Assembly: GCF_016907975.1 (NCBI RefSeq)
Contig: NZ_JAFBCY010000001.1
Coordinates: 682,001 to 746,000 of the forward strand
DNA: 64,000 bases
Origin: Methylopila capsulata
GTDB lineage: Bacteria; Pseudomonadota; Alphaproteobacteria; Rhizobiales; Methylopilaceae
Direction: 5' to 3'
Below the pieces are notes generated by a model. That model was not told the origin of the DNA. It did no database searches and was given only the letters and a program-made list of their open reading frames with translations. Within the stretch, counting starts at the first letter, position 1. Every line of letters starts with the position of its first letter. This document shows positions 23,482-58,631 of the stretch, piece by piece. The translations under genes and the position numbers were made by a program.

Positions 23482-25028
<1,547 letters not shown>

Positions 25029-25112
25029 CATGGGGCGCCCACACCGGGCTGAGACGGCGGCGACGCCGGACCCATCGAACCTGATCCGGCTCATACCGGC
25101 GGAGGGATTGCG
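25029..25112 (+). promoter_or_regulatory. TPP riboswitch (THI element)
   Basis: The conserved thi-box parts occur in order: GGGGCGCCCAC, CCGGGCTGAGA with the pyrimidine-sensor loop, a variable GC-rich arm, ACCCATCGAACCTGATCCGG and CATACCGGCGGAGGGAT. The final GGAGGG (25101-25106) is also the Shine-Dalgarno sequence eight bases before the ATG at 25115, so thiamin pyrophosphate should block translation directly. It controls the permease gene and probably the binding-protein gene after it. Confidence 0.95.
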
Positions 25113-25114
25113 AG

Positions 25115-25939
25115 ATGGCGGACGCCGCAGATCGGCTCGTCGCCCCCTTGTCCGACACGACCGCAAGGCCTCGGCGCGCCCTCATGGCGTTCGGACGGCT
25201 GGCGGCGACGCTCGGCGTCCTGATCGCCGCCTGGCAGGCCTTCGTCACCCTGTCAGGCACGCCGCCGTTCCTGCTGCCGCCGCCGGCCCGCGTCGGCGTC
25301 GCGCTGATCGAACAGTCCGGCTTCCTCGCCCGCCAGACGCTGACCACTCTGACCGAGATCGTCGGCGGGCTCGCGATCGGCGTGGCCGTCGGCGCGATCG
25401 CCGCGCTCGCCATCGCCGCGCTCCCCACGCTCCGCCGCTGGCTGCTGCCGCCGCTGATCGTGGCCCAAGCGGTCCCGGTGTTCGCGATCGCGCCGCTGCT
25501 GGTGCTGTGGCTCGGCTTCGGCCTGGGGTCGAAGCTCGCGATGGCGGCGCTGATCGTGTTCTTCCCCGTCACCTCGGCCTTCTACGACGGCCTGCGCCGG
25601 GCCGACCCGAACCTGGTCGACCTCGCCCGTCTCTACGGCGCCTCGCCGCTGAAGACCCTGCTGCTGATCCGCCTGCCCTCGGCGCTGCCGGCCTTCGGCA
25701 CCGGGCTGAAGCTCGCCGCCGCGGCCGCCCCGATCGGGGCGGTGGTCGGCGAATGGGTCGGCGCGTCGTCCGGCCTCGGCTTCGTCATGATCCACGCCAA
25801 CGCGCGGATGCAGACCGATCTGCTGTTCGCCGCCCTCATCATTCTCGCCGTGGTCGCCGCCAGCCTCTGGTTCGCGGTCGACTGGGCGATCGCCCGCTTG
25901 ATCCACTGGTCGCCGGAGCACGGCCGCCGCGACTCCTGA
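25115..25939 (+). CDS. ABC transporter permease for a thiamin precursor (ThiX/SsuC type)
   Basis: A 274-residue inner-membrane permease with about six transmembrane helices. The cytoplasmic coupling loop DLARLYGASPLKTLLLIRLP is the EAA motif that contacts the ATPase. It belongs to the nitrate/sulfonate/taurine permease family that includes ThiX. The TPP riboswitch directly before it and the NMT1-type binding protein after it point to uptake of a thiamin pyrimidine precursor. No ATPase gene is adjacent. Confidence 0.88.
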   Translation: MADAADRLVAPLSDTTARPRRALMAFGRLAATLGVLIAAWQAFVTLSGTPPFLLPPPARVGVALIEQSGFLARQTLTTLTEIVGGLAIGVAVGAIAALAIAALPTLRRWLLPPLIVAQAVPVFAIAPLLVLWLGFGLGSKLAMAALIVFFPVTSAFYDGLRRADPNLVDLARLYGASPLKTLLLIRLPSALPAFGTGLKLAAAAAPIGAVVGEWVGASSGLGFVMIHANARMQTDLLFAALIILAVVAASLWFAVDWAIARLIHWSPEHGRRDS

Positions 25940-33882: not shown

Positions 33883-33978
33883 TGGTGGAAGAGAGTGGGA
33901 GTCGAACCCACCGGAGACCGGCTGACGGCCCCCTCCGGCTTTGAAGGCCGGCCGCCCCACCGGGGACGCTTCTCCTCC
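33883..33978 (-). tRNA. selC: tRNA-Sec (anticodon TCA)
   Basis: A 96-nt tRNA including encoded CCA. The acceptor stem has eight base pairs (GGAGGAGA with TCTCTTCC, one G-U), longer than in elongator tRNAs. The anticodon loop is CTTCAAA with UCA reading UGA. A long variable arm (GGGGCC...GGTCTCC) and a canonical T-arm (GTGGG TTCGACT CCCAC) follow. The overall sequence resembles E. coli selC closely. Its 5' end is nine bases after the selB stop, so it is probably co-transcribed with selA and selB. Its 3' end was the integration target of the adjacent element. Confidence 0.97.
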
Positions 33979-41298: not shown

Positions 41299-44200
41299 TT
41301 ATGCCGACGCCGGAGCCGAGGTCGGCTCGATGTTGACCAGGAACGCCTTGTACTCAGGCGTCTCGATGTTGGCGTCGCCGACGAAGGGGGTCAGCGAGTT
41401 CGGGTTGTAGCCCTTCTTGGTCTTGCCCATGAAGCCCCAGTGCTGCGGGATGCCGACCACGTGGACCGGCCGCCCGTCGACCATCAGCGGCTTGATGCGC
41501 TTGGTGACGACCGCCTTGGCCTTGATCGACCCGCGGTTCGACCACACCCGCACCCAGCCGCCCTTCTCGATGCCCTTCTCCTTGGCGAGCTGCTCCGAGA
41601 TCTCGACGAAGAACTCGGGCTGCAGCACCGCGTTGACCCAGACGTGCTTGGTCCACTGGTGGAAGTGCTCGGTCAGGCGATAGCTGGTCGCGACGTACGG
41701 GAACGCGTCCGCGTTCCCCAGCGCCTCGAGGTCGGCCTTGAAGATGCGCGAGGCGGGATTGCCGCGGATCTTCGGCGCGATGGCGTTCGCCACCGGCGCC
41801 TCGAACGGCTCGTAGTGCGACGGGAACGGCCCGTCGCGCATCATGCCGCGGGTGAACAGCCGCGCCACGCCCTCGGGGTTCATGATGAACGGCCCGACCG
41901 ACGCTTCCGGCTTCACCGTCGGGCCGTAGTCCGGCACGTCGTAGCCGCCCCAGCGCTCGCCGGTCCACCAGACCAGCTTGCGCGACGGATCCCACGGCTT
42001 GCCGTTCACGTCCGACGAGGCGCGGTTGTAGAGGATCCGCCGGTTGAGCGGCCAGGCCCAGGCCCATTTCGGCGCAAGCCCGGTGTCGGCCGGATCCGCG
42101 GTGTCGCGCCGCGACATCTGGTTGCCGGCCTCGGTGTAGCAGCCGGAGTAGATCCAGCAGAACGAGGCGGTCGAGCCGTCGTCCTTCATCTGGCCGAAGC
42201 TGTCGAGCAGCTTGCCCTTCGCCACCAGCACCTTGGTCGGGTCGTTCGGATCGGTCACGTCGGCGAGCGCCGTGCCGTTCATCTCCTTGGCGAGCTCCTC
42301 GGCCGCCGGCTCCTCCGGCTGGCCATAGGGCCACCGCAGGTTGACGATCGGGTCCGGGAAGGCGCCGCCCTCCTTGAGGTAGAGCTCCTTTATCCGCAGG
42401 TGCAGGCCGGCCATGATCCAGGTGTCGGCCTTGGCCTCGCCCGGAGGCGAGACCGCCGCGTTGTGCCACTGCAGCCAGCGGCCGGAGTTCACGATCGAAC
42501 CCTCGTCCTCGGCGAAGCAGCTGGTCGGCAGCTGGAACACCTCGGTCTGGATGTCCGCGCTTTTCACGTCGTTGAACTCGCCGTGGTTCTCCCAGAACCG
42601 CGAGGTCTCGGTGTCGAGCGGGTCCATCGTCACCAGGAACTTCAGCTTGGAGAGGCCGGCCGTGATCTTCGCCCGGTTGGGGAAGGTCATCAGCGGGTTG
42701 AACCCCTGGCAGAAGTAGCCGGTGATCTTGCCCTGGTTCATGAGCTCGAACGTGCGCAGCACGTCGTAGGTGACGTCGAGCTTTGGCAGCCAGTCGAAGG
42801 CCCAGTTGTTCTCCGCCGTGGCCTTGTCGCCCCACATGGACTTTTGGAACGAGACGAAGAACTTCTTGTAGTTCTGCCAGAAGCTGGTCTGGCCGGGACG
42901 CAGCGGCTTGAAGCCGCGGGTCGACATGTAGGCGTTGAAGTCGGGCTCCTTCTCCGTCGGCAGGTTCATGTAGCCGGGGAGCGAGTTCGACAGCAGGCCG
43001 AGGTCAGTGAGACCCTGGATGTTGGAGTGGCCGCGGAGCGCGTTCATGCCGCCGCCGCGCACGCCGATGTTGCCCAGCAGCAGCTGGATCATCGCCATGC
43101 CGCGGATGTTCTGCGCGCCCTTCGAATGCTGGGTCCAGCCGAGCGCGTACATCGACGTCATGGTCTTCGTCGGCGTCGAGCACTCGGACATCATCTCGGC
43201 CACCTTCAGGAACTTGTCCTTGGGCGAACCGCAGATCTTCTCCACCATCTCGGGCGTGTAGACCGCGAAATGCTGCTTCATCAGCTGGAACACGCAGCGC
43301 GGGTCCTGCAGGGTCGGGTCGACCTTGGCGTAGCCCTGCTCGTCCATCTGGTAGTCCCAGGACGAGCGGTCGTAGTCGCGCTTCTCTTCGTTGTAGCCGG
43401 TGAACAGGCCCTCGGCCCAGCCGAACTCCGGCTTCACCAGGTAGGAGGCGTTGGTGAAGGCCTTGACGTACTCGTGCTGGATCTTGTCGTTCGACAGCAG
43501 GTAGTTGATGACGCCGCCGAGGAAGGCGATGTCGGTGCCGGGCCGGATCGGGCAATAGAAGTCGGCGACCGAGGCGGTCCGCGTGAAGCGCGGGTCGACG
43601 ACGATCAGCTTGGCGCCGCGGTTGGCCTTGGCCTCGGTGACCCATTTGAAGCCGCACGGATGCGCCTCAGCGGCGTTGCCGCCCATGACGACCACGAGGT
43701 CCGCGTATTTGATGTCGCCCCATGCGTTCGTCATGGCGCCGCGACCGAATGTTGGGGCGAGACTCGCCACCGTCGGTCCGTGTCAGACGCGCGCCTGGTT
43801 GTCGAAGGGCAGGACGCCGAGGGAGCGGATGACCTTGTAGGTCAGCGTTCCCGTCTCGTTGGTGGTGGCGGAGGCCGCCAGGAACCCGACCGAGGTCCAG
43901 CGGTTGACGGTGACGCCGTCCTTGCTGGTGGTCTGGAAGTTCTTGTCGCGGTCGTCCTTCATCAGGCGCGCGATGCGGTCGAGCGCGAAGTCCCACGTCA
44001 CCCGCTCGAAGGTCTCCGAGCCGGGCTTGCGGTGCATCGGGTACTTCAGCCGCGTGTCCGCATGCACGAAGTCCAGCAGCGCCGCTCCCTTGGGGCAGAG
44101 CGTGCCGCGGTTCGTCGGATGGTCCGGGTCGCCCTCCACATGCAGGAGCGACGCGTGGGTGTTCTTGGACCTGTCGCCGAGGCTGTACAGGATGACGCCG

Positions 44201-54505: not shown

Positions 54506-55003
54506 TCATGAACGGAACCGATCGGCGAGCCGGCGCGCGACCTCGGGCGGCGCGAAGGCCGAGACGTCGCCGCCCATGGCCGCGATCTGGCGGACGAGCG
54601 TGGCGGTGATGAAGCGGGACGCGGGGCCGGCCGGCAGGAAGACGGTCTGCACCTCCGGCGCCAGCTCGCCGTTCATGCCCGCCATCTGCATCTCGTAATC
54701 GAAGTCGGTCGCGTCCCGCAACCCGCGGACGAGCAGCGTCGCGCCGGCCGCGCGCGCGGCCTCGACGACAAGGCCCGAGAACGCGACGATCTCCAGGGCG
54801 ACGCCCGCCGTTTCGGCCAGCGGGCCGCAGGTCGCCGCGATCAGCTCGCGGCGCTCGTCAGCCGAGAAGATCGGTTGCTTGCCGGCATGGACCCCCACCC
54901 CGACGACGAGCCGATCCGCGAGCGTGAGCGCGCGCGCGACCACGTCGAGGTGTCCGTTGGTCACCGGGTCGAAGGAGCCGGCGTAGAAGGCGGTGCGGGG
55001 CAT
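54506..55003 (-). CDS. coaD: Phosphopantetheine adenylyltransferase
   Basis: A 165-residue enzyme of coenzyme A synthesis that joins AMP to 4'-phosphopantetheine. Nucleotidyltransferase signature [17 protein letters not shown] at the start, [20 protein letters not shown] in the middle, [20 protein letters not shown] near the end. Length is normal. First gene of the coaD - cyclophilins - YdcZ - queA - tgt run. Confidence 0.97.
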
Positions 55004-55177
55004 GGGCGACCGGCGACGTGAACCCGAGGGCGGATTGCGCGCCGTGCTTACCGCGCTGGCGGTCCGGACGGCAAGCCCGGCCGGCTTCGAACCGGTGAAC
55101 GCGACATGAACGCCCGGCCCAGAAAACGTTCAGTCGACCGCCGCCATTCTCGCCGGCGAAACATCGAGGAGGTCGTG

Positions 55178-55348
55178 ATGAACGCCGAACCGACGATGCG
55201 TTCGCAAAGGCTCCGCACGGCGCTCGCGGGCGTCGCCCTGCTCTACGCGCTGCTGTCGCTGGCGGTGCTCGCCACCGCGTCGACGCCAATGCGCGGCGGG
55301 AAGCCGAACGCAGCGACCTCTCTCGAAAGCCAACCCCTCGCGCGGTGA
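55178..55348 (+). CDS. Small single-helix membrane protein, unknown
   Basis: A 56-residue protein with a basic head (MNAEPTMRSQRLR), one membrane helix (TALAGVALLYALLSLAVLAT) and a short polar tail. GAGGAGG lies seven bases before the ATG. Its transcript would end at the bidirectional terminator at 55459-55495. No family recognised. Confidence 0.6.
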   Translation: MNAEPTMRSQRLRTALAGVALLYALLSLAVLATASTPMRGGKPNAATSLESQPLAR

Positions 55349-55458
55349 CCCCCGCCGCGAAACGGCGTCTGGACGAAATCCCGCCCCTCTTCGTCCCGAA
55401 CGCGCGCGAGGACGCCCGGCCCCTGGGGAGCGGCCGGGCGGCTTCATCCTGAAAACGC

Positions 55459-55495
55459 AAAACGGCGCGTCGCAGAGCCTGCGACGCGCCGTTTT
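55459..55495. terminator. Bidirectional terminator between the tRNA-like RNA and the small membrane gene
   Basis: AAAACGGCGCGTCGCAG pairs perfectly with CTGCGACGCGCCGTTTT around AGC. On the minus strand it begins six bases after the CCA of the tRNA-like RNA. Confidence 0.93.
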
Positions 55496-55501
55496 GGATC
55501 T

Positions 55502-55577
55502 TGGAGGCCCAGCCTGGATTTGAACCAGGATGTAGAAGCGTTCCCGCTTCCTAGAGTAGCCATTCCCCCACCGGGCC
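55502..55577 (-). ncRNA. tRNA-like RNA with tetraloop-capped anticodon arm
   Basis: A 76-nt cloverleaf with encoded CCA. Acceptor GGCCCGG/CTGGGCC (one G-U), U8, D-loop AATGGCTA with A14, A15, G18, G19 and A21, T-arm CCTGG TTCAAAT CCAGG, U48 for the Levitt pair. The D-stem is weak (GGGG/CTCT). The anticodon arm does not fit a decoding tRNA: GAAGCG pairs with CGCTTC and leaves a four-base GGAA loop of GNRA type; U33 is absent, and the discriminator base is U. The sequence lies 80 bases after the gyrA stop on the same strand and is followed at once by a strong terminator, so it is probably transcribed. A decayed tRNA is the alternative, but the other arms are intact. Confidence 0.7.
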
Positions 55578-55657
55578 GACGTCCGGACGATGTCACGGAC
55601 GAATGCGCCGAACAACGATGACCGGAAGTTAAGCTTAAACCTTTCTTACCCCGTCGC

Positions 55658-58399
55658 TCACGCGCCGGCGTCGCCCTCGTCGCCGGCCTCGGCGGTCTCC
55701 TCCTCGCCGATGTGCTCGACGGAGACCACGCGCTCGCCCTCGGCGGTGTTGAACACGATCACCCCCTGCGTCGAGCGGCCCGCGAGGCGGATGCCCTCGA
55801 CCGGGCAGCGGATCAGCTGGCCGGCGTCCGTGACCAGCATGATCTGGTCGGCGTGCTCCACCGGGAACGAGGCGACCAGCGGCCCGTTGCGGTCGTTGGT
55901 GACCATCGCGACGATGCCCTTGCCGCCGCGGCCGGTGACCCGGTACTCGAACGACGACGAGCGCTTGCCGTAGCCGTTCTCCGACAGGGTGAGGATCATC
56001 TGCTCGGCCGCGCTCATGGCGGCGTAGCGCTCCGGCGAAATCCGGACGTCCTCGTCCCCGCCGTCCTCGTCGATCTCGGCGGGGGCGTCCTCCGTGGCGC
56101 TCTCGCCCTGGCCGCGCCGCACGGCGTTCGCGAGCTTGAGATAGGCCAGGCGCTCGGCCGGCTCCGCCTCGAAGTGGCGCAGGATCGACAGCGAGATGAC
56201 CTTGTCGTCCTTCGCCAGCGTCACGCCGCGGACGCCGACCGAATCGCGGCCCTTGAACACGCGCACATCGTCGACCCGGAAGCGGATGCACTGGCCGCCG
56301 GCCGTCGTCAGCAGCACGTCGTCGTCCTCGGTGCAGATCTGCACGTCGACGATCGCCTCGCCCTCGTCGAGCTTCATGGCGATCTTGCCGGAGCGGTTGA
56401 CGTTGACGAAGTCGGACAGCTTGTTGCGCCGGACGGTGCCGCCCGAGGTCGCGAACATCACGTCGTACTTCGCCCACTCCGACTCGTTCTCGGTGAGCGG
56501 CATGATGGTCGTGATGCGCTCGCTCTGCTCGAGCGGCAGCATGTTGACCAGCGCCTTGCCGCGCGCCTGGGGAGCCGCGAGCGGCAGACGCCACACCTTC
56601 TCCTTGTAGACCTGGCCGCGCGACGAGAAGAACAGCACCGGCGTGTGGGTGTTCGCCACGAACAGCCGGGCGACGAAGTCCTCCTCGCGGAACGACATGC
56701 CGGAGCGGCCCTTGCCGCCGCGGCGCTGCGCCCGGTAGGTCGCGAGCGGCACGCGCTTGACGTAGCCGGCGTGGGACACGGTCACGACCATGTCCTCGCG
56801 CTGGATCAGGTCCTCATCCTCGAAGTCGGCGTCGGATTCGAGGATCTCGGTGCGCCGCGGCGTGGCGAACTGGGCCTTCGCGGCCAGCAGCTCCTCGCGC
56901 ACGATCGCCTGCACCCGCTCGCGCGAGCGCAGGATCTCGAGGTAGTCGGCGATCTCGACCGCGATCTTGTCGAGTTCTTCCGCGATCTCGTCGCGGCCAA
57001 GCGCCGTGAGGCGGGCGAGCCGCAGCTCGAGGATGGCGCGGGCCTGCTCGAACGACAGGCGGTAGGTGCCGTCCGCCGCCAGCTTGTGGCGCGGGTCGTC
57101 GATCAGCTCGATCAGCGGCGCGACGTCCATCGCGGGCCAGTCGCGGTCCATCAGGCGGTCGCGCGCCGTCGCCGGGTCCGGCGCGGTGCGGATCGTCTGG
57201 ATGACCTCGTCGATGTTAGCGACCGCGATCGCGAGGCCGACCAAGACATGCGCCCGGTCGCGGGCCTTGTTGAGGCGGAACTTGGTGCGGCGGCTGATCA
57301 CCTCCTCGCGGAAGGCGAGGAAGGCGACGAGCACGTCGCGCAGGTTCATCAGCTCGGGCTTGCCGCCGTTGAGCGCCACCATGTTGACGCCGAACGTCGC
57401 CTGCAGCTGGGAGAACCGGTAGAGCTGGTTCAGCACCACGTCGGCGACCGCGTCGCGCTTCAGCTCGACCACGATCCGCATGCCCTGGCGGTCGCTCTCG
57501 TCGCGGAGGTCGGATACGCCCTCGACGCGCTTGTCGCGCACGAGCTCGGCGATCTTCTCGACCAGCGTCGCCTTGTTCACCTGGTAGGGCAGCTCGGAGA
57601 CGATGAGAGCCTCGCGCTCCTTGCGCACGGTCTCGACCTCGACCCGTCCGCGCATGATCACCGAGCCGCGGCCGGTGGTGTAGGCGGAGCGGATGCCGCC
57701 GCGGCCGAGGATCAGACCCGAAGTCGGGAAGTCCGGCCCTGGGACGATCTCGAGCAGCTCCTCGACCTCCATCTCGGGCTTCTCGATCAGCGCCACGCAG
57801 GCGTCGACCACTTCGCCGAGATTGTGGGGAGGGATGTTGGTCGCCATGCCAACGGCGATGCCGCCCGCGCCGTTGACCAGCAGGTTCGGGAACTGCGCCG
57901 GCAGGACCGAAGGCTCCTTCTCGGAGCCGTCGTAATTGTCCTGGAAGTCGACCGTGTCCTCGTCGATGTCGGCCAGCAGCGCCATGGCGGGCTTCGCCAG
58001 CCGCACCTCGGTGTACCGCATGGCGGCCGGCATATCGCCGTCGATCGAGCCGAAGTTGCCCTGGCCGTCCGCCAGCATCAGCCGCATCGAGAATTCCTGC
58101 GCCATGCGGACGAGCGCGAAGTAGATCGATTGGTCGCCGTGCGGGTGATACTTACCGATGACGTCGCCGACCACGCGGGCCGACTTGCGGTAGGGCCGAT
58201 CGGGGAAGTAGCCGTTCTCGTTCATCGAGAACAGGATGCGCCGGTGCACCGGCTTCAAGCCGTCGCGCACGTCGGGCAGCGCGCGCGCCACGATCACGCT
58301 CATGGCGTAGTCGAGGTAGGAGCGGCGCATCTCGTCGGCGATGGAGACCGGCTTGATGTCGGACGGGCCGCCGGACGTCGGATCGGTAGGATCGGCCAA
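55658..58399 (-). CDS. gyrA: DNA gyrase subunit A
   Basis: A 913-residue type II topoisomerase subunit. The catalytic Tyr is in [10 protein letters not shown]; the winged-helix part has [20 protein letters not shown]; the C-terminal beta-pinwheel holds the GyrA box [10 protein letters not shown] and further repeats ([20 protein letters not shown]), then an acidic tail. No ATG is available before the conserved [10 protein letters not shown] block; I chose TTG 58399, and TTG 58435 would add 12 residues. The quinolone-determining region reads [17 protein letters not shown]: Gln90 and Phe94 replace the E. coli Ser83 and Asp87. Confidence 0.97.
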
Positions 58400-58631
58400 G
58401 ATTGAAATGCTTTCGATCGTTGCTTGCGGCCGCAAACTAGACGATTCCGCGCGCCGACGCCAACTTCGCCCGCCGATTCGGCGACGCTAAAACCTCATAT
58501 ACGCCAATATGTTACGGGCGCGACCCGGAGCGCATGGCGGAAACACGACAGGCGCCCACCGCTCTTTCGCGCCGCCGCGACTGTGGATAGGCTTCCGAGG
58601 CTCTCCCGCCGCGCCGTCTCGGGATCCACGC

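Follow-up and report, generated by a model that had tools for sequence, protein, structure and literature searches.

A 76-nt RNA gene next to gyrA in Methylopila capsulata has the body of a tRNA-Cys and an anticodon arm that ends in a GGAA tetraloop. Judged from the comparison of related genomes, this element is a maintained unit under selection. We tentatively favor the view that it is a stand-alone, selected RNA gene derived from tRNA-Cys and withdrawn from decoding, which would be charged with cysteine and used off the ribosome by a tRNA-dependent enzyme. The support for this view consists of its descent, its conservation, a covarying rebuilt arm, a coexisting normal tRNA-Cys and relatives that carry the CysRS identity letters without the standard loop.

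Locus and structure of the element

The features of the locus are collected in Table 1, with positions referring to the window, i.e. the whole analyzed stretch of 64,000 nucleotides. The neighboring genes are presumably gyrA and a coaD-like gene, as recognized from their proteins without a family search.

Table 1 Features at the locus of the tRNA-Cys-like RNA
Feature	Position in the window	Strand	Evidence
tRNA-Cys-like RNA with tetraloop-capped anticodon arm, U73 and encoded CCA	55502..55577	-	ARAGORN, fold prediction, conservation in the genus
Rebuilt anticodon arm, 7 pairs (6 Watson-Crick + 1 G-U) with GGAA cap	55534..55551	-	Sequence, fold
GGAA tetraloop (GNRA type) within a constant G-C pair	55541..55544	-	GGGAAC in 13/13 genomes of the genus
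18-pair hairpin with A-tract/T-tract, probable terminator	55458..55496	-	Long hairpin 3' of CCA at 13/13 loci of the genus
TTGT, part of a possible -35 element	55612..55615	-	TTG[CT] at -37/-38 at 11/13 loci of the genus; inference
gyrA (presumed), upstream neighbor on the same strand	55658..58435	-	ORF; matched 5' of the RNA at 12/13 loci of the genus
coaD-like gene (presumed), downstream neighbor on the same strand	54506..55003	-	ORF; matched downstream (fetched stretch) at 11/13 loci of the genus

An initial annotation of this DNA had described a tRNA-like RNA downstream of gyrA, and ARAGORN indeed reports one with exactly the ends given in Table 1, as "tRNA-???" with the four-letter "anticodon" ggaa, 80 bases from the end of gyrA. 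The Rfam tRNA model (RF00005) reports nothing on the element, neither at gathering nor at E up to 10. Of the tertiary bases that had been listed as typical of a tRNA, U8, A14, A15, G18G19 and U48 are present, together with the T-arm and the encoded CCA, as is U73. Fold prediction yields a cloverleaf-like shape (-34.1 kcal/mol, z -2.40), and 3 of 200 shuffles fold equally well. The arm reads GAAGCG-GGAA-CGCTTC plus an outer G-U pair; the GGAA loop of the initial annotation is therefore correct, but its six-bp stem comprises seven pairs once the outer G-U is counted. In place of the seven-base loop with U33 and GCA of an elongator, the element thus possesses a GGAA tetraloop on a seven-pair stem. 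The closing G-C pair is constant in all 13 genomes of the genus, and other lineages have other apices.

The 18-pair hairpin starts 5 bases after the CCA of the element and is likely a terminator. A simple terminator scan reported no terminator at the locus, because the T run of the hairpin sits inside the stem. Of the very strong terminator announced within six bases, the hairpin and its position are confirmed, and its function is likely. A scan for sigma-70 promoters found none at the locus. A TTAASCTTAA-like stretch at about 55629-55640, 52-63 bases 5' of the RNA and 5' of the putative -35 element, recurs in similar form at most loci of the genus and could either form part of the gyrA end or serve as a site for a regulator. 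A small ORF with one apparent hydrophobic segment (55106-55348) runs on the plus strand, opposite to the RNA and coaD, in the stretch that separates them, and a similar-looking ORF lies at the same place in locus L254 (6246-6503). Elsewhere the window contains a TPP riboswitch (25021-25124, plus strand) as well as a tRNA-Sec (33883-33978, minus strand) and a SECIS_3 element (43730-43788, minus strand); the genome appears to use selenocysteine.

Conservation within the genus

A DNA search of 101 genomes detected the element in 15, namely in all 13 genomes of the window genus, in one of another genus of the same family (G014) and in one of another family (G051). The apex GGGAAC is identical in all 13 genomes of the genus. 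When the 15 sequences (13 of them distinct), among them those of G014 and G051, are aligned, two-sided changes are seen at five of the seven pairs of the arm. In this alignment 97.8% of the arm cells pair, as against at most 58.1% in slid controls. For the whole structure, none of 500 shuffles reached the observed pairing or covariation score and one of 500 the number of two-sided pairs, with the caveat that relatedness alone can exceed shuffles. Arm pairs were counted on the alignments A2 and A4 only; A3, which joins all lineages, was not used for this purpose because its arms are out of register.

The anticodon arm of the canonical tRNA-Cys is identical in all 12 genomes of the genus that were compared (G008 was left out), whereas the element occurs in the same 12 genomes with nine versions of its middle part and only five of the rest. 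Its arms outside the anticodon arm are near-constant in the genus. When the RNA is folded by itself, no more than nine of the 13 sequences have a minimum-energy structure that resembles a cloverleaf. The initial annotation had asked for presence in close relatives and for compensatory stem changes under an unchanged loop. Both were found, the GGAA loop itself being seen only in the genus, and the random changes in every arm that would have spoken against it are not seen, since changes are rare outside the anticodon arm.

Relationship to tRNA-Cys

The genome contains 45 matches to RF00005, the element not being among them. At these places ARAGORN identifies one tRNA-Cys(GCA) of 74 nt, which is separate from the element. 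Because the genome has this intact tRNA-Cys of its own, a mis-sequenced elongator, which had also been considered at the outset, is very unlikely. The element and the tRNA-Cys share the 5' GGCC, the D-loop but for one base, the CAT before the T-stem, U73 and the CCA, and it is because of these common features that we regard the element as a tRNA-Cys paralogue. They differ in the acceptor pairs 5-7, in the T-stem and in the entire anticodon arm. Set against elongator tRNA-Cys(GCA) in general, the element agrees in the GGCC start of the acceptor, C3-G70, U73, CCA, a near-identical D-loop, features of the T-loop and the cloverleaf, but lacks the seven-base anticodon loop and, in the window genus, the GCA.

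In the available text of PMC9976931, the bacterial Cys identity set comprises U73, G2-C71, C3-G70 and G34 C35 A36. The element possesses the acceptor part of this set, U73, G2-C71 and C3-G70. Among 20 aligned sequences from different lineages, U73, CCA and C3-G70 are invariant; G2-C71 is not, being replaced by A2-U71 or G2-U71 in some members.

Distribution in the order and class

Two order-wide pattern searches covered 397 genomes each and a class-wide one 387 genomes; since the patterns require U73 and fixed letters in the D- and T-loops, other forms escape them and all resulting counts are lower bounds. Within the order at least 42 of the 397 genomes match, at least 37 of them with odd-loop relatives; of the other matches, G278 has a normal loop and the four of f24-g64 have a seven-base loop with G33. 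The 37 relatives are made up of the 13 genomes of the window genus (g1, GGAA), all four of g3, 16 of family f35, two of f29 and one each of f14 and f52. The apices of g3 are GGCA (G014), AUGAAA (G015) and CAGCAA (G016 and G017), those of f29 and f14 are GUGCAA and AUGCAA, and the f52 member, G406, which ARAGORN reads as tRNA-Cys, has either a CGCAA apex or seven bases with C33. None of the 37 has a seven-base loop with U33; the loop size deviates in 36, and G406 allows a seven-base reading in which position 33 is C. Of the 37, 23 still have GCA, whereas the 13 genomes of the window genus and G015 have lost it. The loops of f35, f29 and f14 retain the U that precedes GCA, so that in these families only loop size and pairing would point to a loss of decoding. 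The GGAA tetraloop was seen in the window genus alone.

In the class-wide search 8 of 387 genomes match, six of them among the 381 outside the order, and of these six only G679 has an odd loop. The RNA concerned (L312, contig 19) is tRNA-Cys-like with a changed anticodon loop and lies near a contig end. For G013, which belongs to another genus (g2) of the window family, the only match is a canonical tRNA-Cys. Four f24-g64 genomes (L302-L305) possess a Cys(GCA) tRNA whose seven-base loop has G33 in place of U33, with two copies in G208 and a six-pair T-stem in the two that were checked; this tRNA may represent an independent route away from decoding. In f11-g97 (L277, L278 and L301), normal-looped tRNA-Cys with an extra T-stem position is found, amounting to six T-stem pairs in L277 and L278. 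When 16 RNAs (14 of the present RNA family and two of f24-g64) were scanned with RF00005 at gathering, none was reported and the lone match was a neighboring tRNA-Leu. ARAGORN called 13 of the same 16 tRNA-??? and three tRNA-Cys.

A pattern scan of named genomes, with a D-loop pattern that matches the Bradyrhizobium type only, yielded 86 loci, all of which have GCA inside a non-standard apex. The titles (80 of the 86 listed) are mostly Bradyrhizobium, plus Afipia, Tardiphaga, less specific names and one "Frankia sp. RB7". We equate family f35 with this type because the RNAs are identical (G051 = L062 and others). GCA is kept in all 38 distinct 76-nt sequences of f35, and the positions next to it in the apex are variable and for the most part paired. 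The corresponding alignment (A4) is without the five 77-nt members L101, L115, L117, L175 and L308, all of which contain GCA. In the 38 sequences the outer extra pair is G-C 25, A-U 6, U-A 2, G-U 1 and A-C 4 times and the inner one G-U 20, A-U 7 and G-A 11 times, i.e. non-standard in 4 and 11 sequences, respectively. As the extra pairs are mostly standard, closure of the eight-base apex to a UGCA tetraloop is feasible in most sequences; the eight bases may also form an open loop. All 38 lack the GG at 18-19. Single matches had hinted that the odd RNA might be the sole tRNA-Cys of the Bradyrhizobium family, but this is ruled out, since a canonical tRNA-Cys is present in all 14 genomes of the family tested.

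Gene neighborhood, common origin and further lost features

The RNA follows a greA-like gene in all four f1-g3 genomes, and at the three f35 loci examined carB is close by and greA follows farther out (tblastn matches), where we take the genes to be greA and carB by recognition. Neither of them was matched at the f29, f14 and f24 loci examined, and no remnant of the RNA was found behind the greA-like gene of the window itself. The neighbors of the RNA thus differ between lineages. A tree of the outer arms (38 sequences), which is weak evidence as it uses 36 positions, groups the odd RNAs at 98% against the canonical tRNA-Cys, with G679 inside the odd group and f24-g64 outside, together with the canonical tRNA-Cys. 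This tree is only supportive of a common origin.

The acceptor/T helix is 7/5 in the window genus and 7/6 in some relatives, and the variable loop is short. All eight members from f1-g3, f29, f14 and f52 have a six-pair T-stem, and their acceptor and T-stem therefore add up to 13 pairs instead of 12, G015 having 12 plus a mismatch. Thirteen pairs is also the acceptor/T length of tRNA-Sec, in which this length contributes to the exclusion of EF-Tu. From the changes in loop, G18G19 and T-stem it follows that the lineages have lost different features of translation, while U73, C3-G70 and CCA are kept, and GCA in most. This pattern would fit an RNA that is charged or bound by Cys enzymes and kept off the ribosome.

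Possible function

The initial annotation had proposed that a tRNA body is kept here for a use other than decoding. This core idea withstood the refuting conditions examined, given the presence in 13/13 genomes of the genus, the compensatory arm changes and the rarity of changes elsewhere. The annotation had missed the tRNA-Cys paralogy and the relatives in other families that bear GCA inside non-standard loops. The rebuilt arm can hardly decode, which suggests that the RNA carries cysteine or binds cysteine-handling enzymes outside the ribosome. In the carrier model, the RNA would be transcribed and trimmed and would obtain a normal CCA end. The single CysRS would then attach cysteine to it, recognizing U73, C3-G70 and, in most lineages, also the exposed GCA, and a tRNA-dependent enzyme would use this cysteine outside the ribosome. 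In the window genus, where GCA has given way to GGAA, charging would proceed via U73 and the acceptor stem or would have been lost in favor of pure binding. A dedicated second CysRS was not evident, as each of the 14 genomes searched has one near-complete match to PF01406, the other matches being weak and partial.

The window genus is the weak point of the carrier model, because its GGAA lacks C35. Recognition by CysRS should be weakened there, as in G015 with AUGAAA. According to the available part of PMC9976931, U73 alone suffices for minihelices, so charging in the window genus could still take place. No neighboring transferase was recognized at the loci examined, and the PEARL partner PF04738 was matched in 0 of 32 genomes, as it likewise was in 0 of 14 controls, so that this result carries no weight. 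A more far-reaching version, which we consider doubtful, is a cysteine-supply system that is core to Bradyrhizobium and several related genera. A purpose-built non-decoding tRNA would feed an undiscovered non-ribosomal acceptor, with the charging letters kept and the features required by EF-Tu and the ribosome, namely the seven-base loop with U33, G18G19 and the 12-pair acceptor/T helix, lost in lineage-specific combinations.

The RNA might also act without being charged, as a decoy or regulator that holds CysRS, a tRNA-processing enzyme or another tRNA-binding protein and thereby controls cysteine charging or another pathway. Nearly frozen outer arms beside an anticodon arm that drifts in sequence would agree with this, as would the loss of GCA in the window genus and G015, which one would anticipate if charging does not matter there. 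We nevertheless consider it rather unlikely, since GCA persists in 38/38 distinct f35 sequences and none of the 20 aligned sequences deviates in the charging end (U73, CCA). For the window genus, one could further imagine a regulatory small RNA that has retained a tRNA fold because it is stable and whose GNRA tetraloop docks to an RNA or protein receptor. The constant GGGAAC on a covarying stem (13/13) is what a docking loop would lead one to expect, and the RNA has a terminator-like hairpin of its own; however, the GGAA loop was seen only in the window genus and the RNA family is wider, which makes this improbable.

It is very improbable that the RNA is a specialized tRNA of translation, serving a shifted frame or a special codon use that is perhaps linked to selenocysteine as in selC-star tRNA-Cys. 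In most apices closure would leave a loop of four to six bases, the window genus has no GCA, a normal tRNA-Cys is present, and none of the 14 genomes searched has a second full-length CysRS. In its favor, the f35 apices expose UGCA, possibly within an open loop of eight bases, f35, f29 and f14 retain the U that precedes GCA, the 13-pair acceptor/T helix of several lineages recalls tRNA-Sec, and the window genome has a tRNA-Sec and a SECIS element. A dead tRNA-Cys copy with a drifting anticodon arm would account for the lost anticodon, yet it is scarcely credible in view of the two-sided changes in 5/7 arm pairs, the constant GGGAAC and the position beside greA in 4/4 f1-g3 genomes. Presence in 13/13 genomes, compensatory arm changes and near-frozen other arms make a pseudogene or a sequencing error very unlikely.

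Comparison with known systems

Non-decoding tRNAs are already known; the present one would have arisen by replacement of the anticodon arm. The tRNA-Other of Bacillus cereus is, in the available text of PMC3399842, likewise a pseudo-tRNA reported without a translation function and given another role. The proposal made there is that it belongs to a larger regulatory RNA next to a genomic island, whereas the present element is compact, Cys-derived, found in 13/13 genomes of the genus and directly followed by a hairpin. The position of this hairpin, directly 3' of the CCA at all 13 loci, would argue against a longer regulatory transcript. As far as the accessible sections of PMC4052509 describe them, the non-proteinogenic tRNA-Gly isoacceptors of Staphylococcus aureus are proposed to escape translation and to feed a tRNA-dependent enzyme, and their G18G19 is replaced, as in the Bradyrhizobium-type members. 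They differ in the amino acid and in that EF-Tu contacts change there, while the anticodon arm is rebuilt here. The selC-star tRNA-Cys and allo-tRNA, in the portion of PMC7609411 available to us, are also non-canonical tRNAs, selC-star with Cys identity elements, and their lengthened acceptor/T helix is matched in some relatives here; what sets them apart is a long variable arm together with extended stems and, for some of them, a second CysRS. The present RNA has neither the tRNA-Sec-like long variable arm nor the 8/4 helix, but a short variable loop, and is accompanied by one full-length CysRS. No description of this RNA was recognized in the parts of the literature searched, with most subscription journals and preprints lying outside them.

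Few tRNAs are known to be used outside translation, and these have usually been found via their enzymes. The present RNA was found from sequence alone and is conserved across genera including Bradyrhizobium. Various related soil- and plant-associated bacteria likewise keep a second cysteine-type tRNA beside the normal one. Since the Rfam tRNA model was silent on all 16 RNAs tested, it may often go unannotated. If the RNA is charged, it implies a cysteine-transfer reaction that is not yet known; if it is not, it would be a natural tRNA-shaped regulator in which the decoding arm has been replaced. Either way, its lineages offer a natural series of anticodon-arm replacements for separating charging from decoding.
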